This document shows positions 45,470 through 57,120 of a stretch of 64,000 nt of DNA, in pieces (position 1 is the stretch's first letter; every line of letters begins with the position of its first letter). The position numbers were made by a program, and so were the translations under genes. The DNA comes from a virus: positions 37,220 through 101,219 of the IMG/VR virus record IMGVR_UViG_3300047557_002442. The stretch is one strand, 5' to 3'. Below the pieces are notes generated by a model that did no database searches, had not been told where the DNA came from, and was given only the letters and a program-made list of their open reading frames with translations.

Positions 45470-45548
45470 TGGTGGGTCCCGTGGGATTCGAACCCACTAT
45501 CTATCGGTTATGAGCCGATTGCTTATACCAGATTTAAGCTTGAGACCC
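45470..45548 (-). tRNA. tRNA-Met or tRNA-Ile2 (CAT)
   Basis: Acceptor GGGTCTC/GGGACCC with one G-T pair, A73, encoded CCA; anticodon CAT in loop CTCATAA. One of three CAT tRNAs here, which fits the usual Met/fMet/Ile2 set; which is which cannot be decided from the gene. Confidence 0.85.
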
Positions 45549-45550
45549 TT

Positions 45551-45624
45551 TGGAGCGGGATAAGGGAATCGAACCCTCACCAAAAGATTGGAAATCTTTT
45601 GTTCTGCCATTAAACTAATCCCGC
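45551..45624 (-). tRNA. tRNA-Gly (TCC)
   Basis: Acceptor GCGGGAT/ATCCCGC, discriminator T, CCA encoded, anticodon TCC. Confidence 0.9.
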
Positions 45625-45815
45625 AGTCCAACTGTTAGCAACTTATGTCCTCACCGTTGGCGTTTGGACGGCCTAATACGTTTAGGAAGACGTTTGGGAG
45701 TTATCCTCCCTAATGACCGAATCCTCATACGTCTATAAGGCAATAACTGTAAATTCAGTTTAGCATTTGCACCCTGACACTACATCGCAGGACAAAGTGG
45801 CTCGGTTCATTTATA
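45625..45815 (-). ncRNA. Candidate structured non-coding RNA in the tRNA array
   Basis: 191 bp with no gene. On the minus strand an outer stem AGACGT/ACGTCT encloses GGGAG-CTCCC and is followed by CCTAA-TTAGG, then a CCGT..ACGG element. Position within the tRNA transcript recalls the T4 stable RNAs C and D. No homology claimed. Confidence 0.35.
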
Positions 45816-46382
45816 CTATGCTGCAAATCTTGAATATCTTGGTAGCTTAGCCTTCAAGTAATCCATTTGGTCAGCAACAACGTTTCTGTTTTGTAAAATA
45901 AAATGTTCCCAACGACATGGTCTATATGGAACATACAGTAAGTGCATTTTAGCTTCTTCTGGTGTTCTGTTAGACTTTGTTTCGTTACAGTCCTTACATG
46001 CAGTTACAGAGTTTTCCCAAGCATTAGTACCACCACGACTTTTTGGAAGTACATGGTCTCTTGTTAGCTTTTCAGGATGAAACTCTCCACCGCAGTAGGC
46101 ACAGATATGATGGTCTCTACGGAACAGTAAATGGTTGCCATGTGTATTGATAGTTGGTCTATCAAACCGACGTTTGCATTCACCTTCAATAGCGATAATA
46201 GATTTGGCAACAATCACACTACGGTCGCCAGTTTTTCTTTGAGTACCACCATGGAACGTAGCTATGTCATCACCTAGCTCCCATACTACTTTGTCTGATG
46301 CATAGTAGTGAATGGCTTCTTCCATAGAAAGCCATTTGAATGGATTGCCAGCAATGTCCAAACCTAATATTCTAACGTCCAC
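45816..46382 (-). CDS. HNH endonuclease
   Basis: 188 aa from GTG 46382 (AGGAGATATC upstream). The C-terminal HNH domain has CAYCGG, LTRDHVLPKSRGGTNAWENSV and CKDCNETKSNRT: zinc knuckles plus the DH-N-N core. The N-terminal 90 residues are of unknown fold. Typical phage or mobile-intron type endonuclease, embedded in the tRNA array; it may be a homing enzyme or a restriction-like nuclease. Confidence 0.85.
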   Translation of the reverse strand: MDVRILGLDIAGNPFKWLSMEEAIHYYASDKVVWELGDDIATFHGGTQRKTGDRSVIVAKSIIAIEGECKRRFDRPTINTHGNHLLFRRDHHICAYCGGEFHPEKLTRDHVLPKSRGGTNAWENSVTACKDCNETKSNRTPEEAKMHLLYVPYRPCRWEHFILQNRNVVADQMDYLKAKLPRYSRFAA

Positions 46383-46390
46383 GATATCTC

Positions 46391-46807
46391 CTATTCCACT
46401 TCTATCCAGGTGTAATCACCCAGCCATTTTACTTGACAGATATAATCATAATGTTTAGGTGCACCACAACTCCAGTCTGTTGGACCATGTCGCGTTAGTA
46501 GTGTACCACCACGCTTCATATCTCTGGCTAGCCAGTATGTTTCTCCATTATGAATCTGGAAGTCATACTTAGCAGCATGTACCCAATCCGTTACTTCTAA
46601 CCTTCGTTTGATACTCTCGGCCTGTTTCTGTAGTACCTTAACAAGGTCCATGATACGGTCATACTCTTGTTGAGCGTGCATACGAGCAACATTCAACATC
46701 ACATCCTTTTGCTGAGTAACTGGAACCAACTCGAACTTTGGTGCTCCTATATCCATTGGATATGTGAGACTGTGATGCCGCATTGGATCTTGATCAGTTA
46801 TTTTCAT
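46391..46807 (-). CDS. DUF2452-like conserved protein
   Basis: 138 aa. TYPMDIGAPKFELVPV at the N-terminus and the C-terminal DWSCGAPKHYDYICQVKWLGDYTWIEV match DUF2452, found in T4-like phages and marine bacteria, function unknown. In between, a helical VKVLQKQAESIKRRLE segment. Lies inside the tRNA array. Confidence 0.75.
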   Translation of the reverse strand: MKITDQDPMRHHSLTYPMDIGAPKFELVPVTQQKDVMLNVARMHAQQEYDRIMDLVKVLQKQAESIKRRLEVTDWVHAAKYDFQIHNGETYWLARDMKRGGTLLTRHGPTDWSCGAPKHYDYICQVKWLGDYTWIEVE

Positions 46808-46845
46808 ATCATAATATTCATTGACAACTTGGATGTTTTATTTAT

Positions 46846-46920
46846 TGGTAGGAGCACAGAGACTCGAACTCTGAAAGTCTGGTTAAAAGCCAGATATGAT
46901 AGCCATTTCATCATACTCCC
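46846..46920 (-). tRNA. tRNA-Lys (TTT)
   Basis: Acceptor GGGAGTA/TGCTCCT, A73, CCA, anticodon TTT in CTTTTAA loop. Confidence 0.88.
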
Positions 46921-46922
46921 AT

Positions 46923-46999
46923 TGGTGCGGATGGTCAGATTCGAACCGACACTTTACGGATTTTAAGTCCGTTGACTCTACCTATTGGCCTACATCCGC
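46923..46999 (-). tRNA. tRNA-Leu (TAA), short variable loop
   Basis: Perfect 7-bp acceptor GCGGATG/CATCCGC, A73, CCA, anticodon loop CTTAAAA. The variable loop is only about five bases, whereas bacterial tRNA-Leu has a long arm. Confidence 0.8.
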
Positions 47000-47061
47000 A
47001 GCTGGAACTTCATAGAGATACAGGCTCTCAGTTCCGATTGCTTTCCTGTATTGCATTATAT

Positions 47062-47138
47062 TGGTGCCCAAGGAGGGATTCGAACCCACACTGTACAGTG
47101 TTTGAAACTGTCGCCTCTACCTATTGCGCTACTTGGGC
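47062..47138 (-). tRNA. tRNA-Leu (CAA), short variable loop
   Basis: Acceptor GCCCAAG/CTTGGGC, A73, CCA; anticodon stem ACAGT/ACTGT around TTCAAAC. Class I variable loop; one mismatch in the T-stem. Confidence 0.78.
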
Positions 47139-47189
47139 ATTGTCTTACCTGTAAGTCATATTACGAATTATGACTTAGATATAAGTGAC

Positions 47190-47264
47190 TGGTGGTAATG
47201 AGTGGACTTGAACCACTAACATTCTCCGTATGAAGGAGGTGGACTACCATTGTCCTACATTACC
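47190..47264 (-). tRNA. tRNA-Met or tRNA-Ile2 (CAT)
   Basis: Acceptor GGTAATG/CATTACC, A73, CCA, anticodon loop TTCATAC. Confidence 0.85.
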
Positions 47265-47271
47265 TAAATTC

Positions 47272-47346
47272 TGGGGTCACCGAGGAGGTTCGAACTCCCA
47301 CTGTAAGAGCCACAATCTTACGTGCTGCCATTACACTACGGTCACC
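47272..47346 (-). tRNA. tRNA-His (GTG)
   Basis: Anticodon loop TTGTGGC, C73 with the extra 5' G (G-1) that is the histidine identity element, CCA encoded. One G-G mismatch in the acceptor stem. Confidence 0.85.
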
Positions 47347-47449
47347 ATTGTTGCTGTTCTCCCCCACTCTCGGATTGCAGCATATATGAGCTTAACGTAC
47401 TCATATTCCCTAGAACGTCTACAGGCATAGGCGCCTACCCTGTAAATTC
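47347..47449 (-). other. 103-bp spacer with palindromic hairpin
   Basis: No gene. The minus strand carries TACAGG-g-TAGGCGCCTA-tg-CCTGTA, a near-perfect hairpin, close to the start of tRNA-Trp. Possibly an RNA-processing element. Confidence 0.4.
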
Positions 47450-47523
47450 TGGCTCCGGTGGAGGGAATCGAACCCCCACTAACGGTTTTGGAGACCGCTG
47501 CGCTACCATTACGCCACACCGAA
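47450..47523 (-). tRNA. tRNA-Trp (CCA)
   Basis: Anticodon loop CTCCAAA, G73 as expected for Trp, CCA encoded, acceptor TTCGGTG/CACCGGA. Confidence 0.88.
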
Positions 47524-47531
47524 GTAAAACT

Positions 47532-47609
47532 TGGAGCATAGAGTGGGATTTGAACCCACGGGGTTACAGTTTTGCAGACTGTTGCTTTGGACCACTCAGC
47601 CATCTATGC
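47532..47609 (-). tRNA. tRNA-Cys (GCA)
   Basis: Anticodon loop CTGCAAA; T73 (U73) is the Cys identity base; acceptor GCATAGA/TCTATGC. Its first bases contain the TAG stop of the preceding protein gene. Confidence 0.88.
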
Positions 47610-48011
47610 TTCGATTGGGAACAACTCCGTAAACTTAGCTGTCATAATTTCAACTAACTTAGGGTCTCTATAAGCATAGTCATCTTCGATCTCTAAGTTG
47701 ATTACTTGTTTGTAACTAAAGTCTGTAATCACATTTGCCAATTCATTCTGCATAGCATTGATTTCGAGTTGCTGGAATGAATCCATACAAAGTATAACAT
47801 CAGCCCAAACAACCAATGCATGTGTTACAGGAACAATGGCATATTCCAAACTGGTCCCTGCACATCTGGTATTAAAATTCCAAGGTGGGCTGCTAAGTAT
47901 ATGAGCAGCGGTAGGAGAGCGCAAACAACCAGCGCTACACACAGTAAGTACTCGGCGATGTCTTCCTTGATACGCATTTTGCACAACTCCTAATTGATTT
48001 CTTTTAATCAT
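47604..48011 (-). CDS. Low-molecular-weight tyrosine-phosphatase-like protein
   Basis: 135 aa from ATG 48011 (GGAG 6 bases upstream). VLTVCSAGCLRSPTAAHIL holds the Cx5R phosphatase loop; the C-terminal EIEDDYAYRDPKLVEIM provides the general-acid Asp region. Likely a phosphatase for arsenate or tyrosine-phosphate type substrates, or a regulator. The stop codon lies inside tRNA-Cys; an early promoter is upstream. Confidence 0.75.
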   Translation of the reverse strand: MIKRNQLGVVQNAYQGRHRRVLTVCSAGCLRSPTAAHILSSPPWNFNTRCAGTSLEYAIVPVTHALVVWADVILCMDSFQQLEINAMQNELANVITDFSYKQVINLEIEDDYAYRDPKLVEIMTAKFTELFPIEA

Positions 48012-48030
48012 CATTTACTCCAAGAAATAC

Positions 48031-48059
48031 ATTATCATGTATCGCATTTATTAAGTCAA
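48031..48059 (-). promoter_or_regulatory. Early promoter within the tRNA array
   Basis: -35 TTGACT, 17 bp, -10 GATAAT; starts right after tRNA-Phe, drives the phosphatase gene and downstream tRNAs. Confidence 0.75.
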
Positions 48060-48060
48060 C

Positions 48061-48136
48061 TGGTAGGACCCCACAGAATCGAACTGTGTCCTCATGCTCT
48101 TCAGGCACGCGCGCAGACCACGTACGCCAGAGTCCT
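48061..48136 (-). tRNA. tRNA-Phe (GAA)
   Basis: Anticodon loop CTGAAGA, A73, CCA, acceptor AGGACTC/GGGTCCT. Confidence 0.88.
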
Positions 48137-48143
48137 ATAAATC

Positions 48144-48220
48144 TGGTCCTCGGAGGTGGAATCGAACCACCACTCTATCGATTATCAGTCGATTGTTTTG
48201 AACCATTAAACTACCCGAGG
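48144..48220 (-). tRNA. tRNA-Ile (GAT)
   Basis: Anticodon stem ATCGA/TCGAT around CTGATAA, A73, CCA, acceptor CCTCGGG/TCCGAGG. Confidence 0.88.
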
Positions 48221-48222
48221 TT

Positions 48223-48297
48223 TGGCGCGGCTGGTAGGATTCGAACCTACATAAGAGGGCTTAGAAGACCCTTGCACATCCCTTGTACCACAACCGC
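48223..48297 (-). tRNA. tRNA-Arg (TCT)
   Basis: Anticodon loop CTTCTAA, G73, CCA, acceptor GCGGTTG/CAGCCGC. Confidence 0.88.
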
Positions 48298-48302
48298 AAA
48301 AC

Positions 48303-48378
48303 TGGCACCCTTGGAAGGAATCGAACCTCCATCATGACGTTCGTAGCGTCGTATTCTAATCCGTTGAACTACAAGGGT
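48303..48378 (-). tRNA. tRNA-Arg (ACG)
   Basis: Anticodon loop CTACGAA, G73, CCA, acceptor ACCCTTG/CAAGGGT. Wobble A34 needs inosine editing by host TadA. Confidence 0.88.
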
Positions 48379-48379
48379 A

Positions 48380-48889
48380 TTACTCTTCCACAATCTCGTC
48401 GTCAGCCATCAAGATTGGACATAATTTTTCTACACTGTCAAACATATGTCTGAGTCTATTTTTATCATATCCATACGAGTCTAATTTGTTTAATACTTTT
48501 TCATTAAAGTCTGGAGCAGCTTCTCTATGATGACGGTGATGTCTATAGAATGAATGCATTCTAAACAATCCATATGCATGCTTTGTTGATAAAGCCATAA
48601 TTGCACATGCACTATCACAATGATCTAAACTATACCAATAAACGTTTCCATGTTTATTAACTGCATCCATTGCTTCAAACAAATCAGCACTTGTGCCACC
48701 AGCACTTGAAACATAGAAACTTATAGTCTTGTTAGGATTACTCTTAACTATTTGAATAATCTCATCATACTCTTCTTTGTCTAGCTTACCGACTATTCTA
48801 TATTCACTGTCAGCTACCTTCTGTACTACAGGAATAGTAGCAGTACAAGCAGTTAATAATAAAAGTATGAATATAAGTTTCACATGCAT
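48380..48889 (-). CDS. Lipoprotein with ClpP/SppA-like serine-protease fold
   Basis: 169 aa. Signal and lipobox LLTAC (Cys15). FYVSSAGGTSADLFEAMDAVNKH resembles the glycine-rich ClpP oxyanion region and HCDSACAIMAL the nucleophile-Ser turn; the following SFYRHHRHHRE may supply the His. ClpP-fold periplasmic lipoproteins are rare. Role unknown; could process envelope proteins. Confidence 0.6.
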   Translation of the reverse strand: MHVKLIFILLLLTACTATIPVVQKVADSEYRIVGKLDKEEYDEIIQIVKSNPNKTISFYVSSAGGTSADLFEAMDAVNKHGNVYWYSLDHCDSACAIMALSTKHAYGLFRMHSFYRHHRHHREAAPDFNEKVLNKLDSYGYDKNRLRHMFDSVEKLCPILMADDEIVEE

Positions 48890-48895
48890 CCTAAT

Positions 48896-48971
48896 TGGCG
48901 ACCCGTAAGGGAATCGAACCCTTATGTCCCACTAGACAGGCGGGCATAATAATCCACTATATGAACGGGCC
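48896..48971 (-). tRNA. tRNA-Asp (GTC)
   Basis: Anticodon loop CTGTCTA, G73 (Asp identity), CCA, acceptor GGCCCGT/ACGGGTC. Confidence 0.88.
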
Positions 48972-48976
48972 AAAAC

Positions 48977-49050
48977 TGGTTGCGGGCGTCCGAATTGCAC
49001 GGCGTCTCGAGCTTATGAGGCTCGCGAGCTACTGTTGCTCCACCCCCGCA
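48977..49050 (-). tRNA. Initiator-like tRNA (CAT) with degenerate elbow
   Basis: TGCGGGGGTGGAGCA at the 5' end, TAGCTCG and CTCATAA are as in bacterial fMet tRNA; A73, CCA. But the D-loop lacks the GG pair, the T-loop reads TGCAATT instead of TTCAAAT, and the T-stem has mismatches. May be defective or specialised. Confidence 0.65.
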
Positions 49051-49056
49051 GTAATC

Positions 49057-49132
49057 TGGTGCCCCCTGTCGGATTTGAACTGACAACCTATCGCTTACAA
49101 GGCGATTGCACTACCAATTGTGCTAAAGAGGC
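49057..49132 (-). tRNA. tRNA-Thr (TGT)
   Basis: Anticodon stem ATCGC/GCGAT around CTTGTAA, A73, CCA. Confidence 0.88.
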
Positions 49133-49133
49133 A

Positions 49134-49209
49134 TGGTACTCAGTGTAGGAATCGAACCTACATAATCTATCTTGTAAGGATAGTCTCTAACCACTCGAGT
49201 CAACTGAGT
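49134..49209 (-). tRNA. tRNA-Val (TAC)
   Basis: Anticodon stem CTATC/GATAG around CTTACAA, A73, CCA, acceptor ACTCAGT/ACTGAGT. Confidence 0.88.
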
Positions 49210-49425
49210 ATAGGTGTTAAGCTACTCGCACTACCGAGCCCTTAACTGAGGTGTTTACCCTGTCTCAACTGTGGCCCTTATGGATGGTACAGTCTCAACC
49301 CACGAATCTTTCAAGGCTCCCTACAACGGGACTTCGAGGTGGCCGCTAAGCCGTATCGTGTGCACCCTGCTCTTATGGTTTGGCAATTACCCACTTTCTT
49401 CAAGTAAAAGTGTAAACTAGTGTTC
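49210..49425 (-). ncRNA. Candidate structured non-coding RNA in the tRNA array
   Basis: 216 bp with no gene. Minus-strand hairpins include GTTAAG..CTCG..CGAG..CTTAAC near the 3' end, CCC..GGG, and CACTTT..AAAGTG near the 5' end. Shares CAGGGTGCA with the spacer at 45.6-45.8 kb. Unknown function. Confidence 0.35.
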
Positions 49426-49499
49426 TGGAGCGGATAACGAGGTTCGAACTCGTGATTCAACCTTGGCAAGGTCGTGTATTACCACTATACTATATCCGC
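49426..49499 (-). tRNA. tRNA-Gly (GCC)
   Basis: Anticodon loop TTGCCAA, T73, CCA, acceptor GCGGATA/TTATCCGC-type pairing. Confidence 0.88.
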
Positions 49500-49500
49500 A

Positions 49501-49567
49501 TGGTGGGGTGTCTTAACAGTGTACTTCCGACACCCCGAACACGTAATGTACACACGTGCCTGCAGCT
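49501..49567 (-). other. Spacer with tRNA-like CCA-ended hairpin
   Basis: On the minus strand GGGGTGTC pairs with GACACCCC around a 16-base loop and is followed by ACCA, just like an acceptor stem with encoded CCA but without the rest of a tRNA. Perhaps a tRNA remnant or minihelix. Confidence 0.4.
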
Positions 49568-49639
49568 TGGTGGACCGTGAGGGAGTCGAACCCTCCAGGA
49601 GTTGCGTGCAAGGCATCTCTGTACCCCGGTACACAGCCC
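49568..49639 (-). tRNA. tRNA-Ala (TGC)
   Basis: Anticodon loop CTTGCAC, A73, CCA, acceptor GGGCTGT/ACGGTCC. One mismatch in the anticodon stem. Confidence 0.85.
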
Positions 49640-49713
49640 ATAATACATCTAGGCACTGATGAGTCAGTTGTTTAAAACTAGCGCTCAATGGAATCCCGCT
49701 TCGTTCCTAAAAC

Positions 49714-49789
49714 TGGTCTCGCATGAAGGACTCGAACCTTCGAACTCTCCGCCCCAAACGGAGTGGTATAGCCGCTAACCGAATGCGAG
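49714..49789 (-). tRNA. tRNA-Pro (TGG)
   Basis: Anticodon stem CTCCG/CGGAG around TTTGGGG, A73, CCA, acceptor CTCGCAT/ATGCGAG. Confidence 0.88.
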
Positions 49790-49796
49790 ATAAAAC

Positions 49797-49873
49797 TGGC
49801 TGCCTAGGGAGGGCTCGAACCTCCGACATCCTGATTAACAGTCAGGCGCAACTACCAACTGTGCTACTAGACA
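49797..49873 (-). tRNA. tRNA-Asn (GTT)
   Basis: Anticodon stem CCTGA/TCAGG around CTGTTAA, G73 (Asn identity), CCA. Confidence 0.88.
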
Positions 49874-49882
49874 ATAATTCTT

Positions 49883-49929
49883 GGGATCATGTTGGCCAAG
49901 GCCTTTTTCGTGCTTGGCGCCGCGATCCC
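49883..49929 (-). other. Stable stem-loop in GC-rich spacer
   Basis: GGGATC/GATCCC outer stem with CCAAG/CTTGG inner stem on the minus strand, in a spacer of 116 bp that is GC-richer than its surroundings. No gene. Confidence 0.4.
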
Positions 49930-49989
49930 TCCGGCCTCCTCCCCACAACTTCAATTGTTGCCGCTCAAAGTTGCCCGAGGATATTTGTT

Positions 49990-50067
49990 TGGTGGGCTCT
50001 CTCGGACTCGAACCGAGACGCAACTCGTTCTAAGCGAGCTAGGTATGCCAATTCCCGTCAAAAGCCC
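49990..50067 (-). tRNA. tRNA-Leu (TAG), short variable loop
   Basis: Acceptor GGGCTTT/AGAGCCC, A73, CCA, anticodon loop CTTAGAA, T-arm CTCGG/CCGAG. Variable loop of about five bases instead of a long arm. Confidence 0.8.
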
Positions 50068-50069
50068 TT

Positions 50070-50161
50070 TGGCGGAGAATATTGGATTTGAACCAATGAT
50101 ACGATTTTACTCATATTCCTTCTTAGCAGGAAGGTGTCTTAAACCACTCGACCAATTCTCC
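50070..50161 (-). tRNA. tRNA-Ser (GCT)
   Basis: Class II tRNA with a long variable arm, anticodon stem CCTTC/GAAGG around CTGCTAA, G73, CCA. Its 5' half is also the 3' end of a protein gene. Confidence 0.88.
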
Positions 50162-50518
50162 GTATTCTGTTTCAGGGTCAATAATAAGAACTGTTCTAGG
50201 TACTATATTTTTATTAATATACACAACCTTATTATCATCTGCCAAGTAGAATGCCCACCCATCAATTAACGTACGATCAACAGGGACAACCTTACCATTT
50301 ACAACAGACTTTGATGCTAATTCGTATCTATTTGACACCCTATTTTTTATTCGCTCTCTATATTTTACTTGCAATCTATATGTCTGTCCACATTCATCAA
50401 CTGCAATTAAATCAATAGGGGAATGATCATCAAATGCAGGAAACACATAGAATCCCTTTTCTTGAAGATCATCAATAACTTTAATTAACCCTTTAACACC
50501 TTTTTGATTTACATTCAT
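50123..50518 (-). CDS. PD-(D/E)XK endonuclease-like protein overlapping tRNA-Ser
   Basis: 131 aa. GFYVFPAFDDHSPIDLIAVDECGQTYRLQVKYR is a clear PD-(D/E)XK core (P-x-D, then Q-V-K) of the PDDEXK_5/I-Ssp6803I kind. An N-terminal helix (KGLIKVIDDLQEKG) completes the domain. The last 13 codons and the TAA lie inside tRNA-Ser. It may be a homing-type nuclease associated with the tRNA array or a junction resolvase. Confidence 0.72.
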   Translation of the reverse strand: MNVNQKGVKGLIKVIDDLQEKGFYVFPAFDDHSPIDLIAVDECGQTYRLQVKYRERIKNRVSNRYELASKSVVNGKVVPVDRTLIDGWAFYLADDNKVVYINKNIVPRTVLIIDPETEYGELVEWFKTPSC

Positions 50519-50550
50519 AATTATATCCTAAATAATTATTTATGTAAGCC

Positions 50551-50571
50551 CAGAGGTTGAGTCAACCTCTG
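50551..50571. promoter_or_regulatory. Perfect palindrome upstream of the nuclease gene
   Basis: 10-bp arms CAGAGGTTGA/TCAACCTCTG around one base. On the minus strand it contains a TTGACT that could be a -35 box, so it may be an operator; a clean -10 is not evident. Confidence 0.5.
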
Positions 50572-50650
50572 TTACAAATAAAATTGGGCGGTTTTCTACG
50601 CTCTCCTAACCTCGAATACATTAAGTCGTAGCTTTCTCCCAAAATAAAAC

Positions 50651-50741
50651 TGGCGGAAGGATGGCGGAATCGAACCCCTGGCTATCCCTAGCTCGCTCTG
50701 CTTTCAAAACAGACGCAACATCCCCGGTTGCATAACCTTCC
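50651..50741 (-). tRNA. tRNA-Ser (TGA)
   Basis: Class II with variable arm GCGAGCTAGGGATAGC, anticodon stem TCTGT/GCAGA around TTTGAAA, G73, CCA. Confidence 0.85.
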
Positions 50742-50748
50742 GTAAAAC

Positions 50749-50823
50749 TGGCAGAGGTACTAGGACTCGAACCTAGACGAACAGCTTCAAAGACTGTTGT
50801 GCTAACCATTACACTATACCCCA
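50749..50823 (-). tRNA. tRNA-Gln (TTG)
   Basis: 5' TGGGGTA as in bacterial tRNA-Gln, anticodon loop CTTTGAA, G73, CCA; weak first pair typical of Gln. Confidence 0.88.
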
Positions 50824-50830
50824 ACAAAAC

Positions 50831-50913
50831 TGGTGGGTGTTGAGGGAATCGAACCCCCTTGCCGAAGCAACTGTTTTACAGACAGCCGTCAATTCCAGTA
50901 TGACCTAACACCC
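50831..50913 (-). tRNA. tRNA-Tyr (GTA)
   Basis: Anticodon loop CTGTAAA, class II variable arm TTGCTTCGGCAA as in bacterial Tyr, A73, CCA. Confidence 0.88.
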
Positions 50914-51062
50914 AATAACCATATAGAAACACACTCTGACTCATCCATTTGGCGTCGACTCCTTTTGAATGCGTTGGATTAATAACCCTCCAACCAGGAC
51001 CCTTTCGGTCTTCATTACTCATAGCTCGCGATCTAATTTCATGAATTGAATGTGCTTTTATA

Positions 51063-51138
51063 TGGTACACGGTACGGGAATCGAACCCGTCCTACTGACG
51101 TGAAAGGCCAGTGTTCTAAACCGATAAACTAACCGTGT
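51063..51138 (-). tRNA. tRNA-Glu (TTC)
   Basis: Anticodon loop CTTTCAC, A73, CCA, acceptor ACACGGT/ACCGTGT. First tRNA of the array in transcription order. Confidence 0.88.
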
Positions 51139-51509: not shown

Positions 51510-51517
51510 TATAAATA
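51510..51517 (+). promoter_or_regulatory. T4-type late promoter of the curli/cyclase operon
   Basis: Perfect TATAAATA on the plus strand, 18 bases before the GTG of the first gene. It marks the operon as late-expressed. Confidence 0.65.
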
Positions 51518-51534: not shown

Positions 51535-51810
51535 GTGGATTTTTTTAAACTTGTAGCAGAAGTAGGTTTTCCAATTGCCGCAGCTGTTGCTGCTGGTTAC
51601 TTTGTCTTCTTAACTTTAAAGTTCATTCTTGCAGGAGTTACATCTTCTGTCAAAGGAATGAGTGGTATCATCACAGCTCTTGATAAAAGAGTAGCAACCA
51701 TGAACCATGATGTTGTACGCATTGATACAAAAGTTAGTCATGCTTTAGGTATCCCACCTGATTTAGATAGAATCGCACGTGCCGAGCAATCTGACGCTCG
51801 TCGTGACTAA
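51535..51810 (+). CDS. Small membrane protein, first gene of the curli operon
   Basis: 91 aa from GTG 51535 (AGGAGGAATAGCT upstream). EVGFPIAAAVAAGYFVFLTLKFI is a single TM helix; the rest is a charged coiled coil ending DLDRIARAEQSDARRD. A paralogue lies at 52046 (same GFPI-AA-GYFVF motif). Perhaps an inner-membrane adaptor of the exporter or a holin-like protein. Confidence 0.6.
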   Translation: MDFFKLVAEVGFPIAAAVAAGYFVFLTLKFILAGVTSSVKGMSGIITALDKRVATMNHDVVRIDTKVSHALGIPPDLDRIARAEQSDARRD

Positions 51811-51923: not shown

Positions 51924-52055
51924 ATGTTCAAAGAACGTAATCTCATGTTCCAAAAGGAACGTGATCGTATGATATGGACTGATCTGGATTTGGCGATTGG
52001 TTGTGTCGTAGCTTATTTCATTGGTATGATTATAGGATTTCTATTATGGATATAG
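51924..52055 (+). CDS. 43-aa membrane protein
   Basis: MFKERNLMFQKERDRMIWTD, then a C-terminal TM helix (LAIGCVVAYFIGMIIGFLL). AAGGA lies 7 bases before the ATG. Its TAG overlaps the start of the next gene (ATGGATATAG). Confidence 0.55.
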   Translation: MFKERNLMFQKERDRMIWTDLDLAIGCVVAYFIGMIIGFLLWI

Positions 52056-52318
52056 CAGCATTAATTAGCAAGTATGGGTTTCCTATAGTTGCGGCAGCAG
52101 GATTAGGGTATTTTGTTTTCTATGTATGGAAGTGGGTAACAACTGACATTAAGCCAGTTGTTGGTGAATCGAATCAAGTTCTTATTAACTTGATCGATCG
52201 CGTAAGAATGTTAGATAACGACCTAATCAGATTAAATCAAAGAGTAAACGTTTATCTTTCATTGAAAGAATCAAATGATAAAAAATCTACCAATAATATT
52301 GATAGCAGTAGTAACTAG
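52046..52318 (+). CDS. Small membrane protein, paralogue of the 51.5-kb gene
   Basis: 90 aa from ATG 52046 (an upstream open stretch belongs to the previous gene). MDIAALISKYGFPIVAAAGLGYFVFYVWKWV mirrors the paralogue; the tail is coiled-coil (DRVRMLDNDLIRLNQRVNVYL). Tandem duplication. Overlaps csgF by 44 bases. Confidence 0.6.
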   Translation: MDIAALISKYGFPIVAAAGLGYFVFYVWKWVTTDIKPVVGESNQVLINLIDRVRMLDNDLIRLNQRVNVYLSLKESNDKKSTNNIDSSSN

Positions 52319-52754
52319 CGTATATGGTGGTGAACTTGTACATCAATTTAATAGCCCTTCCTTCAATGGACAAGGGTTCAGTAGTCACGTATTAACAATC
52401 AAGCAATTAGAAGATCAAGCAAAAGAAAAAAATGAAGCTGCTGAAGATGCAATAAGAGCAAGAGCAGAAGCAGCTGCAAAAGATACCCCACAAGCAAGAT
52501 TCATTGCAAACTTAGAATCACGTATATACAGTCAACTTGCAAAACAATTAACAGATAGTATGTTCGGTGAAGGTGCTACATGTGTAACACCAGGTGTGAT
52601 ATGTGGTACAATTGATAACCTAGGTGGTAATTCTATCACTTGGATGCTTGGTGAAGGTAGTAATTCTGGTAACATTGTTATTACAATCCAGGACTTAAAC
52701 AACAGTAGTAACAGAACAGTAATGGCCGTACCTGTTGGTACGTTCTATTTCTAG
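52275..52754 (+). CDS. csgF: CsgF-like curli assembly factor
   Basis: 159 aa, E. coli CsgF is 138. Signal peptide (LPIILIAVVTSVYG), then ELVHQFNSPSFNGQGFSSHVLTIKQLE, matching the CsgF start E-L-x-F-x-N-P-S-F-G-G-N that inserts in the CsgG pore. The helical middle and the beta C-terminus (NIVITIQDLNNSSNRTVMAVPVG) correspond to the CsgF tail. Located immediately before csgG, with which it forms the outer-membrane channel cap. Confidence 0.78.
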   Translation: MIKNLPIILIAVVTSVYGGELVHQFNSPSFNGQGFSSHVLTIKQLEDQAKEKNEAAEDAIRARAEAAAKDTPQARFIANLESRIYSQLAKQLTDSMFGEGATCVTPGVICGTIDNLGGNSITWMLGEGSNSGNIVITIQDLNNSSNRTVMAVPVGTFYF

Positions 52755-52763
52755 GAGCCGTCA

Positions 52764-53576
52764 ATGAAAAGCCTCTTAGCTTTGTTAATGGTTACTTTAT
52801 TGACTGGATGTGCTTCCTCTATGGTTGCTGGTGCAAAGAAATTTGAAGCACCAGAAGTCCAACAAGGGACATATCTACAACAGAACAAAATTGATGTACC
52901 AGCAGATGGACCAATTCCAGTTGCTGTATATTCATTCCAAGATAAGACTGGTCAACGTAAAAATGTTCCAAACATTGCCAGCTTTAGCTCAGCTGTAACA
53001 CAAGGTGCTGATGCTTACTTAATCAAGGCTCTACAAGATGTTGGTGAAGGTCGTTGGTTCACTGTGGTAGAGCGTGTAGGTTTAGATAATCTAATCAAAG
53101 AGCGTCAAATGATTAGACAAATGCGTGAACAATATCAAGGACGTGATGCAAAGCAATTACCTCCAATGATATTTGCTGGAATACTGATGGAAGGTGCAGT
53201 AACCGGCTACGATTCAAATGTTATGACTGGTGGTTATGGTATGAGAGTGCTCGGTATTGGAGCACAAACTCAATACCAATCAGACAGTGTAACTGTTACA
53301 TTAAGAACAGTCAGTGTCAATACTGGTGAAGTACTAACAACCGTAACTATAACTAAAACAATTCTTAGTTATATGGACAAATTTGGTATGTTACGATTTG
53401 TCGAAGCGGGTGAGCAAGCAATCGAGTCAGAGAGTGGTGTAAGTGTAAACGAAAGTATTAATCGCGCTACAGACTTAGCAATCCAAGCTGCAGTGATTGC
53501 TACAATCAAAGAAGGTGTTCGTAAAGGACACTGGAGCTACAAAGGGCAACCTATTGTAACTCCATTAATAAACTAA
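52764..53576 (+). CDS. csgG: CsgG-like curli secretion pore lipoprotein
   Basis: 270 aa, E. coli CsgG is 277. Lipobox LLTGCASS (Cys16). PIPVAVYSFQDKTGQRK, SSAVTQGADAYLIKALQDVGEGRWFTVVERVGLDNLIKERQ and PMIFAGILMEGAVTGYDSN are the CsgG family core; GIGAQTQYQSDSVTVTLRTVSVNTGEVL covers transmembrane hairpins. It should form the nonameric outer-membrane pore that exports curli-type subunits. GGAG before the ATG. Confidence 0.92.
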   Translation: MKSLLALLMVTLLTGCASSMVAGAKKFEAPEVQQGTYLQQNKIDVPADGPIPVAVYSFQDKTGQRKNVPNIASFSSAVTQGADAYLIKALQDVGEGRWFTVVERVGLDNLIKERQMIRQMREQYQGRDAKQLPPMIFAGILMEGAVTGYDSNVMTGGYGMRVLGIGAQTQYQSDSVTVTLRTVSVNTGEVLTTVTITKTILSYMDKFGMLRFVEAGEQAIESESGVSVNESINRATDLAIQAAVIATIKEGVRKGHWSYKGQPIVTPLIN

Positions 53577-53587
53577 AGGAGTAACAA

Positions 53588-54370
53588 ATGAAACTGTTTA
53601 GCAAACTATTTGGTATGGTGGCTTTAAGTTTCGCATTGTCATCTTTTGCTGTTGAAGCAACTGGACCAAATCGTGTATACATTGAACAAATTGGTAGTTC
53701 TAACTTGATTACAATTGAACAAGTTGGTGGTACTAATGATGTTGGTGGTACTGCTGGTTCAGCAACTGTTGACCAAACTGGTGTTACAACATTGACAGTT
53801 ACTGCACCTAGTGCAACAAACTATGGTACAGTAAATGGTAGTTCAAACCAATTGTCAATAAACCAACGTGGTAATGTTAACCAAGCACAATATAACGTTA
53901 AAGGTAATAACAATACCTATACAAGTAACGTGACTGGTAATGGTAATCAAACAAAACTAAATGTTGGTGATACAAACACAAGTGGTCTTCGTAATACTGT
54001 TAATGAGACTATAAATGGTAACAACAATATGCAAATTACTACTGTAGTTGGTAGTGATAATGCATTGTCTACAACTGTAACTGGTAGTAACAACCAACTT
54101 ACAAATACAGTAACAACAAGTAATGCAGATGTAACACATACTATTACAGGTAGTCGTAACATAGTAAACACACAACAAATTGATGCTGCTGGTGCAAATG
54201 GCCACAGCTTAACAAACTCCATCGTTGGTGATTACAATAGCGTTACAACACAGCAACAAGGTACAAACGATACTACTGTTAATATTGCAACAACTGGTGA
54301 TCATAATACTGTGACAGTACGTACAAGTAGCACAACAATACTCAACCCAGTTTCAGCAATCGCAAGATAA
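53588..54370 (+). CDS. Curlin-repeat (CsgA/CsgB-like) amyloid subunit
   Basis: 260 aa. Signal peptide (FGMVALSFALSSFAVEA). Mature part is Asn/Gln/Gly/Thr-rich with curlin-type repeats: NRVYIEQIGSSNLITIEQVGGTN near the start and several SNQLSINQRGNVNQAQ, GNNNTYTSNV, GNGNQTKLN variants. Such repeats stack into beta-solenoid amyloid. The adjacent pore genes make it the likely exported substrate. Repeat regularity decays toward the C-terminus. Confidence 0.85.
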   Translation: MKLFSKLFGMVALSFALSSFAVEATGPNRVYIEQIGSSNLITIEQVGGTNDVGGTAGSATVDQTGVTTLTVTAPSATNYGTVNGSSNQLSINQRGNVNQAQYNVKGNNNTYTSNVTGNGNQTKLNVGDTNTSGLRNTVNETINGNNNMQITTVVGSDNALSTTVTGSNNQLTNTVTTSNADVTHTITGSRNIVNTQQIDAAGANGHSLTNSIVGDYNSVTTQQQGTNDTTVNIATTGDHNTVTVRTSSTTILNPVSAIAR

Positions 54371-54371
54371 A

Positions 54372-55466
54372 ATGAAATACTGGTTTGTTATTTGTTTGCT
54401 ACTAATTAGTACAATTAGTTGGGCAGCAATAGGATCCGTCGTCGATACAAAAGGAACCTCTTGCTCCATTGAACGTGGAAAGCAAAAACTACCTGGTGAT
54501 AAAGGTGTTGGTATTGAAAGTATGGATACCTATATCACTGGTAGTTGTGTTGCTAACATTACATTCAAAGATGATACTAAAGTCAAAGTCACAGAAAATT
54601 CCAGACTTCTCATAGATGATTTTATTTTTGATCCAAAGCAATCAGATGCTGGAAAGTTAGCATTAAAGGTTGGAATGGGTACTGTTCGTTATGCATCAGG
54701 CCAAATCGCTAAAAACAATCCACAAAAAGTAGATATAAAAACGCCAACAGCTACTATTGCTGTTCGTGGTACAGATTTCAATATGACTGTTGACGAAACT
54801 GGACAGTCATTAATTATTCTTGTTCCTTCATGTAAAGAAGGTGAGAAGATAAAACAATACGAGCTTGAAGAGAACCAATGTAAGGTTGGTAAGATAGATG
54901 TAATTACAGTTGGTGGTACTGTTAGTCTTGATAAGGCATTTGAGGCAACATATGTCACAAGTGCAAACTTACCCCCAACTCCACCTGTTATCATCAATAC
55001 GGTTGAGGGTAATATCAGTAACAGTTTGATTATTGCAAAACCACAAGAAGTAATGAGAGCAAGTAGAGATAATAATAAGGCCAAACGTGATCTTGAGTTT
55101 GAGGAAGAGCAAGCAGAATCAAATAGACAGATTGTTCAAAGAATGAAACAGATGGAAGAACCACCTCCAGCTAAGGTTATGCCATATACATTTGATAATG
55201 GTAGCAAGGGATGTAATCCTTCAATAAACGTTTGTGTGGTTTTTGAAAAGCAGGATGTTCCTGAAGTACAACTAAGGGGTAGAGGGGTTGCCTTTCGTAG
55301 TAATCCTGATCACTATGATGAAGTAAAGACTCAAGGTTACGACTCTAATACGACCGTTAACATCACACATGATGATGCACCAGCAACTGCTTTGATAGGG
55401 TCTGGTGATCCAGGTGGTAACATTGTGAACATAAGACAAAATACTGGAGTTATAAAGACACAATGA
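54372..55466 (+). CDS. FecR-domain secreted protein
   Basis: 364 aa. Signal peptide (FVICLLLISTISWA). Residues about 20-150 form a FecR domain: AAIGSVVDTKGTSCSIERG, SRLLIDDFIFDPKQSDAGKLALKVGMGTVRYASGQ, and PTATIAVRGTDFNMTV. The C-terminal third is charged and low complexity (KAKRDLEFEEEQAESNRQ). FecR proteins transduce envelope signals and are often found beside CHASE2 cyclases in bacteria; here a CHASE2 cyclase is two genes away. Confidence 0.85.
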   Translation: MKYWFVICLLLISTISWAAIGSVVDTKGTSCSIERGKQKLPGDKGVGIESMDTYITGSCVANITFKDDTKVKVTENSRLLIDDFIFDPKQSDAGKLALKVGMGTVRYASGQIAKNNPQKVDIKTPTATIAVRGTDFNMTVDETGQSLIILVPSCKEGEKIKQYELEENQCKVGKIDVITVGGTVSLDKAFEATYVTSANLPPTPPVIINTVEGNISNSLIIAKPQEVMRASRDNNKAKRDLEFEEEQAESNRQIVQRMKQMEEPPPAKVMPYTFDNGSKGCNPSINVCVVFEKQDVPEVQLRGRGVAFRSNPDHYDEVKTQGYDSNTTVNITHDDAPATALIGSGDPGGNIVNIRQNTGVIKTQ

Positions 55467-56581
55467 AAAAACTCCTTCTAATTTTACTACTCCTATGTAA
55501 TGTAGCTTTGGCTAACACAACAGGGCTATCATATACAGTATGTGCTGCAGGAGGTCCTACACCTACAAGAACCTGCTCAGGTAGAACTATACTTGCTACT
55601 GGTGTAAGTCAGAATATTAATTTTGACTGGGGTGGCGGTGGTGTTATGGGTACAGGTAGAGGTGATGGTGTTCTTGTAAACTGGCAAGGGTTTATATTAT
55701 GGCCTGGTACAAGTGGACAACAAACTGTATTTTTCTATTCCGCTTCAGATGATGGTTTCAGTGTAGCTATAAACGGTACATATGCAATCAACAGTTGGCG
55801 TGAACAAGGTGCAAGTTGGTACAATGGTAGTGGTAGTATGACTCTTACTGCTGGACAAGTATATGCTGTCGATATATGGTACTATGAAAATGGTGGTGGT
55901 GCAGCTGCTTTTTGGTATTGGAATACTGGCAGTGGTATTGTACTTGTACCATCAACAAATCTAGCAACAACAAATAACTATTGGGTACCAAGTCTTTGTT
56001 GTGGAGGTAGTAGTGCCCCTATTACAATTGATCTTACGCATTCAAATAGACTGAATACTTTCACAAACCGTACAACAAATGATAGTCGTGTATATGTTGA
56101 ACAGATTGGTAACTTTAATGAAGTCACTATACAACAAACTGGAACAAGAAACAACTACCTAGAATATACTGGTAATGGAATGTCCAATGACGTGAACGTA
56201 ACTCAATCTGGTAATGCTTCAACCACTGCAAATTATATCGATCTCAATGTAAGTGGAAGTAATAATACAGTCAACATGACTCAAACAAGTACTGGTGGAA
56301 CCAAGAGTATGTTTGTGGATGTTCAAAATAACAATAACAATGTTAATATACAGCAGAAGGATAATGGAAGTCATTACATTGATCTAACTATAACTGGTGG
56401 TAGTAAGAACATTGATATTCTTCAGCAAGGAAGTGCTGCTCATCGAGCAGATATAACCTTAACTGGAGCTAGCCCAAGAGATTTGTCCCTTACCCAAACT
56501 GGTACTACTCAACAATCATATAGTATCAACAGTAATTGTACTTCATCGTGTCAACCAATCACGGTGATACAGGGACAATAA
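55463..56581 (+). CDS. PA14-like domain fused to curlin repeats
   Basis: 372 aa. Signal peptide (LLLILLLLCNVALA). Residues about 45-170 resemble a PA14/GLEYA carbohydrate-binding fold: VLVNWQGFILWPGTSGQQTVFFYSASDDGFSVAINGTYAINSW with GQVYAVDIWYYENGGGAAAFWYW. From about 210 onward, curlin-type repeats (NDSRVYVEQIGNFNEVTIQQTG, NDVNVTQSGN) nearly match the other curlin protein. Possibly the nucleator or an adhesive tip subunit. Confidence 0.78.
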   Translation: MKKLLLILLLLCNVALANTTGLSYTVCAAGGPTPTRTCSGRTILATGVSQNINFDWGGGGVMGTGRGDGVLVNWQGFILWPGTSGQQTVFFYSASDDGFSVAINGTYAINSWREQGASWYNGSGSMTLTAGQVYAVDIWYYENGGGAAAFWYWNTGSGIVLVPSTNLATTNNYWVPSLCCGGSSAPITIDLTHSNRLNTFTNRTTNDSRVYVEQIGNFNEVTIQQTGTRNNYLEYTGNGMSNDVNVTQSGNASTTANYIDLNVSGSNNTVNMTQTSTGGTKSMFVDVQNNNNNVNIQQKDNGSHYIDLTITGGSKNIDILQQGSAAHRADITLTGASPRDLSLTQTGTTQQSYSINSNCTSSCQPITVIQGQ

Positions 56582-56589
56582 ATACATAT

Positions 56590-57120
56590 ATGAAAAGAAG
56601 ACCATTGTGTTTTATAACACGCGATAAAGAATATGAGCTTATCCAACAACTATTAACGATAGTAGATAGCTCTACATTTGATCCTGATAATACAGCTATT
56701 ATTATGGCATCACCAGATTACTCTGCAACCGTTGCAATGCATTTATCACATGCATGGTCACAGAGAGGGGAACCACTTCCCATAATACCAGTTGATGTTG
56801 CATATCCTGACGAAACCCATTTGGATTATTACAATGCCAAGTTCCAGCATGAGTTTGAATGGTGGACAATGGCTAACAATCATCCAAAGAAACTTGTGTT
56901 GGTTGAAGCAGGAATCATCAGAGGTGGTAACTGGAAGTGGTTATTACAAACACTAATAAGTGAATATGGATATGCACGTGAGGATATAACTCTTATAGCC
57001 TTGTGTGAGAATATTCATTCAGAAGTCAAATCTGATTATGTTGGGCAATACTTTGACAATGAAAAAGAAGAGCTAATGTTTTACTACGAAAGGTATAATA
57101 AGCATTGGCCAATTTTTTAA
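56590..57120 (+). CDS. Conserved protein of unknown function in the curli/cyclase operon
   Basis: 176 aa from ATG 56590, chosen because the open frame before it lies within the previous gene. No signal peptide, so cytoplasmic. LPIIPVDVAYPDE and KKLVLVEAGIIRGGNWKWLLQTL suggest an alpha/beta (Rossmann or phosphoribosyltransferase-like) fold, but the PRPP motif is not canonical. Lies 9 bp before the cyclase gene. Confidence 0.6.
   Translation: MKRRPLCFITRDKEYELIQQLLTIVDSSTFDPDNTAIIMASPDYSATVAMHLSHAWSQRGEPLPIIPVDVAYPDETHLDYYNAKFQHEFEWWTMANNHPKKLVLVEAGIIRGGNWKWLLQTLISEYGYAREDITLIALCENIHSEVKSDYVGQYFDNEKEELMFYYERYNKHWPIF

Follow-up and report, generated by a model that had tools for sequence, protein, structure and literature searches.

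The window analysed here, a stretch of 64,000 nt, corresponds to bases 37220-101219 of a 101-kb virus record and carries a phage curli (type VIII secretion) operon, whose last curlin gene encodes a fusion of a PA14 domain to a curlin tail (Table 1). As judged from the sequence, genes for CsgG and CsgF lie beside a subunit gene with curlin repeats and, together with the gene order, these features place the operon in the phage curli cluster.

Table 1 Features of the curli operon and its PA14-curlin fusion gene (positions in the window)
Feature	Position	Strand	Basis or remark
26-tRNA-gene cluster	45470-51138	-	
T4-late-like TATAAATA	51510-51517	+	~18 nt ahead of the first start codon in the operon
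Small TM-like protein, PHROG 18771	51535-51810	+	7.5e-36
Second small TM-like protein, PHROG 18771	52046-52318	+	6.8e-33
CsgF, pore-associated chaperone	52275-52754	+	Pfam 1.5e-9
CsgG, outer-membrane secretion pore	52764-53576	+	Pfam 1.1e-49
CsgA-like curlin, presumed main fibre subunit	53588-54370	+	Pfam Curlin_rpt, over cut-off in the genomic search, under it for the protein
FecR-domain secreted protein, curlin-like strand GGNIVNIRQ at its end	54372-55466	+	Pfam 5.3e-10; C-termini
PA14-curlin fusion (372 aa), gene in the variable 'head slot'	55463-56581	+	ORF, Pfam, AlphaFold2, slot position in relatives
Signal peptide MKKLLLILLLLCNVALA/N	55463-55516	+	By eye; low pLDDT
PA14 lectin-like head, residues 21-170	55523-55972	+	Pfam; 6qe7, 2e-18; VIA-align Z 17-19
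Asp-Asp pair, D96-D97	55748-55753	+	Equivalent holds Ca2+ and sugar in MpPA14
Hinge LCCGGS	55994-56011	+	Common to 30 slot proteins spanning eight head architectures
Curlin tail, residues 206-370, fourteen strands, conserved C-terminal cysteine pair	56078-56572	+	AlphaFold2, tail profile
PHROG 29004 gene of unknown function, after the slot and before the cyclase	56590-57120	+	8.8e-39
CHASE2 adenylate/guanylate cyclase, regular member of phage curli clusters (PMC9599517)	57130-59154	+	Pfam 5.4e-35, 1.6e-19
Two small signal-peptide proteins, 118 and 99 aa	59300-59952	+	

Among distinct FecR proteins, 34 of 45 C-termini matched the curlin strand motif N-x-psi-x-psi-x-Q, taken from PMC10192328 (shuffled sequences: mean 0.67, maximum 4), and the remaining 11 finished in a related strand. 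Because of this motif at its C-terminus, the FecR protein is probably a part of the surface structure rather than an iron-responsive regulator, and it may serve as a fibre cap, nucleator or anchor.

Several other features were noted around the operon. The paired PHROG 18771 proteins (~90 aa each) contain a single hydrophobic stretch, match holins weakly, and are too short for the 'histidine kinase' named at this position in published clusters. Neither Pfam nor PHROG families matched the 118-aa protein encoded after the cyclase; together with its 99-aa neighbour, it may belong to the same surface programme. The tRNA genes lie directly upstream of the operon, on the opposite strand. The T4-late-like TATAAATA was considered as a sign of late expression and dropped, as it is not generally conserved (present in L070, L072, L073 and L078, where L numbers denote individual loci, but only 5 of 60 distinct relatives have it in the 1.5 kb ahead of csgF) and its frequency over the window is not above chance.

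Head and tail of the fusion protein

The original prediction had read the first half of the fusion as a PA14/GLEYA-type sugar-binding fold and the second as curlin-type repeats. Indeed, PA14 scored over its Pfam cut-off at residues 46-153 (1.3e-6; 28.8 bits vs 24), GLEYA falling under its own (0.002). In a phmmer search of solved structures, the protein matched 6qe7 (2e-18), in which the anti-sigma factor RsgI3 contributes its tandem PA14 domains. The curlin repeats were likewise borne out: the genomic search placed them over the Pfam cut-off, and the tail profile matched the solved curlin protein 8c50 (5e-15). That these repeats would be nearly identical to those of the neighbouring CsgA-like curlin did not hold for the whole, for which BLASTP gave 32/98 identities (33%; 4e-7); the first repeat alone is close (11/18, by eye).

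AlphaFold2, run on an alignment of 34 sequences (mean pLDDT 85.5), predicted a beta-sandwich at residues 21-170 (pLDDT mostly >90), a low-confidence linker at 177-204 and, at 206-370, a regular solenoid of fourteen evenly spaced strands. In the model, then, the head is of PA14 type and the repeats form a solenoid, as anticipated for either half. Compared by VIA-align, the predicted head matched the PA14 domain of RsgI3 (Z 19.3; 2.1 Å over 141 residues) and the sugar-bound bacterial adhesin lectin MpPA14 (Z 17.4-17.8; 155-160 residues), then Flo1, Flo5 and Epa1 (Z 13-15). MpPA14 binds sugar via a Ca2+ ion held by two adjacent aspartates (PMC8092209), and a DDG motif was present in all 29 PA14-type heads of our collection. 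The MpPA14 sugar-loop residues Gln156, Gly157 and Asp159 are not evidently kept in the fusion head, where the equivalent loop reads YENGG. By profile, predicted fold and Ca2+ motif, the head is classified as a PA14 domain, and a putative Ca2+-dependent glycan binder. In a viral structure library, proteins of uncultured phages named PA14 or 'Curlin associated' aligned to much or all of the model; PA14-curlin sequences have thus been deposited, yet are undescribed as far as we found in the literature.

Head exchange in a conserved slot

Slot proteins were gathered from the best 80 CsgG loci and by a profile search with the fusion, considering the best 80 loci per scan; the source contigs (IMG/VR) are predicted to be viral and may be partial. 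When viral contigs were scanned with the window protein alone for near relatives, none were found. At least 66 distinct phage slot proteins were collected, in which the tail is kept and the head varies between 14 architectures: PA14 alone (24 proteins), LTDV-F58C (9), headless (6), LTDV (5), FESG (4), YNAI-F58C (4), IFDV-F58C (3), YNAI-PA14b (3), and rarer ones. LTDV, FESG, YNAI and IFDV are labels coined here for unnamed domains, and F58C stands for Pfam F5/8 type C (discoidin), a CBM32-like fold. The full PA14-curlin fusions, about 28 in number, are all encoded downstream of fecR wherever the length of the locus allowed judging. Slot proteins range from 140 to 852 aa, as compared to 228-324 aa for the first curlin slot. 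Thirty of the proteins have an LCCGGS-type hinge; the part after it measures 194-200 aa, the part before it 177-564 aa.

Mapped onto a quick tree of CsgG plus FecR (63 rows; SH-aLRT support only), head architecture changed at least 30 times, where the least conceivable number of changes was 13 and shuffled labels averaged 39.7, implying some clustering of heads along with much exchange. One pair of relatives captures such an event. CsgF, CsgG, CsgA and FecR of L006 and L013 are 90-94% identical, and the 88% identity of their DNA ends 6 nt upstream of the slot start codon; the DNA of the heads (FESG vs PA14) does not match, and similarity returns at 86%, 84 nt past the hinge, to continue through the tail and beyond. 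This is a precise cassette replacement. Conversely, similar heads occur on divergent backbones: L008 and L063 share 88% identity in their LTDV heads vs 57% in CsgG, 47% in FecR and 36% in the tails, and L013 and L110 share 89% in their PA14 heads vs 56% in CsgG. Heads are hence common to both backbone clades.

For an LTDV-F58C protein, the AlphaFold model was fair (pLDDT 68), its F58C part fitting CBM32/discoidin folds; none of the Foldseek matches listed could be assigned to the LTDV part, nor did the LTDV head match any of 50,697 phage records. It had escaped the original prediction that the gene belongs to a phage, that its head is exchangeable and that any display would therefore be on an infected host.

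Related heads and surface genes beyond the slot

A scan with the LTDV head returned 70 loci, 65 of them with a curlin tail. In L305, L306 and L321, an LTDV head is followed by F58C or FESG and mounted on a C-terminal barrel, csg genes being absent nearby. The L321 barrel exceeds the cut-off of the Pfam Autotransporter family (PF03797; 3.7e-9) and that of L306 is homologous to it; for L305, which lacks a Pfam match, the C-terminal sequence alone suggests a barrel. The heads of these three proteins are 61-82% identical to curli-mounted ones. Moreover, the gene following several PA14-curlin operons encodes an autotransporter, either over the PF03797 cut-off (L014:11945-13990, L016:11940-13991, L082:12381-15116), by homology to the L321 barrel (L110:7319-9364, L122:7729-9888), or, in L010 and L060, by general appearance only, without a Pfam match. 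The passenger of the L082 autotransporter itself carries a head of the FESG type (44-50% identical; E 2e-58 to 9e-52). In L006 (12246-13484) and L013 (11985-13223), the slot is followed by the gene for a Gram-negative porin (Porin_4; 4e-22), which might alter the phage receptors of the host; its presence in these sister phages is a hint of a proteobacterial host. Given the heads on autotransporters, the adjoining autotransporters and Porin_4, the whole locus looks like one for host-surface remodelling. Aquatic phages might draw on one pool of interchangeable glycan-binding heads, placed on two unrelated platforms (the curli tail and the autotransporter beta-barrel) and retargeting the surface of the infected cell, a generalisation for which we see as much chance of being right as of being wrong. 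If true, the logic of receptor-binding proteins would have been shifted from the virion to the infected cell.

The original prediction had suggested looking for further PA14-curlin fusions in bacteria and phages. Phages provided the above ~28; in bacteria, none of the 385 alphaproteobacterial genomes searched combines PA14 and curlin in one protein (44 carry PA14), no PA14-curlin fusion was present among the best 80 CsgG loci of genome contigs, and a scan of genome contigs for the fusion profile gave no match. The idea that the fusion came from bacteria thus gained no support from these 385 genomes; likewise, L182 (Hyphomonas), the only convincing relative from a bacterium whose operon includes fecR and cyclase, is without a second curlin slot. 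The phage-type order csgF-csgG-csgA-fecR(-curlin-AC) also occurs in five further loci (L180, L186, L188, L189, L191) on contigs assigned to genomes of Flavobacteriaceae, Rhodobacteraceae or Ca. Pelagibacter; these resemble phage sequence that ended up in MAGs through binning.

PA14 domains were also observed outside curlin proteins. Loci L129-L179, on other phage contigs, encode signal-peptide proteins of ~500-1200 aa without curlin, whose PA14 domain (31-44% identical to the window head) is followed by FN3-like, Pro-rich or Ala-rich stretches (e.g. L131:6001-8163, L133:5884-8157, L153:4720-8391). Others, from phages of the same collection, reside in short proteins that have no signal peptide and look virion-structural (L089:1186-1932, L094:1450-2208, L086:1456-2553).

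Proposed display on the infected cell and known counterparts

We consider it fairly probable that the phage operon serves as a curli (type VIII) display system on the infected host, in which the fusion gene fills the slot with the variable head. The signal peptide would take the product across the inner membrane (Sec), from where it would exit unfolded via the phage CsgG-CsgF pore and fold outside. The curlin tail would then co-assemble with the phage CsgA-like fibre, perhaps also with the curlin-capped FecR protein, leaving a Ca2+-dependent PA14 lectin exposed on the host surface, be it at the tip of the fibre, as in the original prediction, or along its length. Recombination between gene start and tail would swap the head and keep tail and operon, such that the bound surface changes and the platform for export and anchoring stays constant. 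The most likely use would be gripping glycans, which may belong to nearby cells and particles (capture) or to the host (receptor masking). From the sequence we infer export and co-assembly of the fusion; sugar binding and the biological use of the head are presumptive. The adhesive curli subunit of the original prediction is thus partly supported, through the operon with CsgF, CsgG and a CsgA-like protein; as the gene is phage-borne, display would be on the infected host and not a biofilm trait of the bacterium itself.

In engineered curli, CsgA carrying a folded binding domain is exported and retains activity (PMC9477280), and these CsgA-VHH fusions show that the route is able to display working binding domains. 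By analogy, the known head folds may bind sugars here as they do elsewhere, e.g. in MpPA14 (PMC8092209) and CBM32-like F5/8C domains. Several points count against this reading: CsgG passes unfolded chains, so that a head of 150-560 aa must remain unfolded in the periplasm, CsgE is missing from phage curli clusters (PMC9599517), and the sugar loop of the head differs from that of MpPA14. Besides, aggregation was not seen upon infection with the methylophage Melnitz (PMC9004378), a phage that is headless in this slot.

What the displayed head would grip can be read in two ways, both tentative and about equally likely. The head may bind sugars of the infected host itself, the amyloid mesh shielding the cell from rival phages (superinfection exclusion), in which case head exchange would follow host surface types. 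Fast exchange suits the tracking of strain-specific surfaces, the outer membrane would also be remodelled by genes next to the slot in relatives (L006/L013, Porin_4; L014/L016/L082, autotransporters), and shielding has already been proposed for pelagiphage curli (PMC9599517); exclusion systems, however, are usually small and early, whereas the curli system is large. Alternatively, and held with the same reserve, the head may capture other cells, debris or particles, either as 'sibling capture', by which new hosts would stay close to the burst, or by holding the infected cell on a particle. Capture has likewise been proposed for phage curli (PMC7029224), and MpPA14, which is close to the head in structure, attaches its bacterium to diatoms (PMC8092209); the lack of clumping with Melnitz speaks against it, albeit from a phage with a headless slot (PMC9004378).

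Readings without display of a lectin appear far less probable. CsgG-CsgF could form a lysis-timing pore, with the curlin proteins as incidental or regulatory cargo, as proposed for Melnitz (PMC9004378) and in keeping with the weak holin matches of the small proteins at the operon start. We regard this as improbable, since large lectin-like heads that exchange fast on a conserved curlin tail would be left unexplained. Least probable of all is a place for the fusion in the virion, for instance as a receptor-binding fibre whose curlin repeats are no more than a beta-solenoid shaft: tail fibres typically exchange their binding domains fast, and related phages do have PA14 domains in proteins of structural type, but the signal peptide, the constant location within the csg operon, a tail profile that fits curlin rather than tail-fibre shafts, and the reuse of heads on autotransporters make this role unlikely.

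The display reading bears on the curli genes of abundant aquatic phages, for which published ideas are based on secretion genes alone. A changing lectin head in a fixed slot offers a handle on the role of phage curli; the heads are small, producible and suited to glycan arrays, by which the ligand could be named lineage by lineage. It also suggests that lytic phages invest in the grip of the infected cell's surface. The phage curli cluster itself is already known in pelagiphages, where CsgG/CsgF have been reported (PMC7029224, Zaragoza-Solas et al. 2020). As far as we found in the literature, the lectin head, its exchange and its reuse on autotransporters are new.

The pelagiphage cluster comprises HK, CsgF, CsgG, CsgA/B, FecR, often a second curli repeat gene, and AC (PMC9599517, Wittmers et al. 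2022). The window operon shares this gene order, differing by the 90-aa PHROG 18771 proteins at the 'HK' position and by an extra gene before AC. The term 'PA14' is absent from the main texts of PMC7029224 and PMC9599517. In the cultured pelagiphage HTVC008M, the same slot encodes a PA14 plus curlin protein (AGE60352.1; Pfam PA14 2.7e-6; 32% identity to the window fusion), annotated as a hypothetical protein only, and in Melnitz it is occupied by a headless curlin.

MpPA14, a domain of the 1.5-MDa type I-secreted RTX adhesin of Marinomonas primoryensis (PMC8092209), shares the PA14 fold (Z 17.8) and the Asp-Asp Ca2+ motif with the window head, but is only about 18% identical and has a different sugar loop. 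The fusion tail shares curlin repeats and, as predicted, the solenoid with CsgA/CsgB and curlin 8c50; unlike these, the fusion carries a folded head before the repeats, and its motif a strands are degenerate. In engineered CsgA-VHH display (PMC9477280), a binding domain is mounted on a curli subunit, as here; that construct is man-made with a C-terminal VHH, whereas the window head is natural, N-terminal and phage-borne. Engineered curli display thereby has a natural counterpart in the slot, which offers a hinge already in place and a dozen arrangements of the head. Exchange of receptor-binding domains in tail fibres likewise combines a fixed shaft with a swappable binding domain; unlike a tail fibre, the window fusion would be secreted and displayed by the infected cell instead of forming part of the virion.
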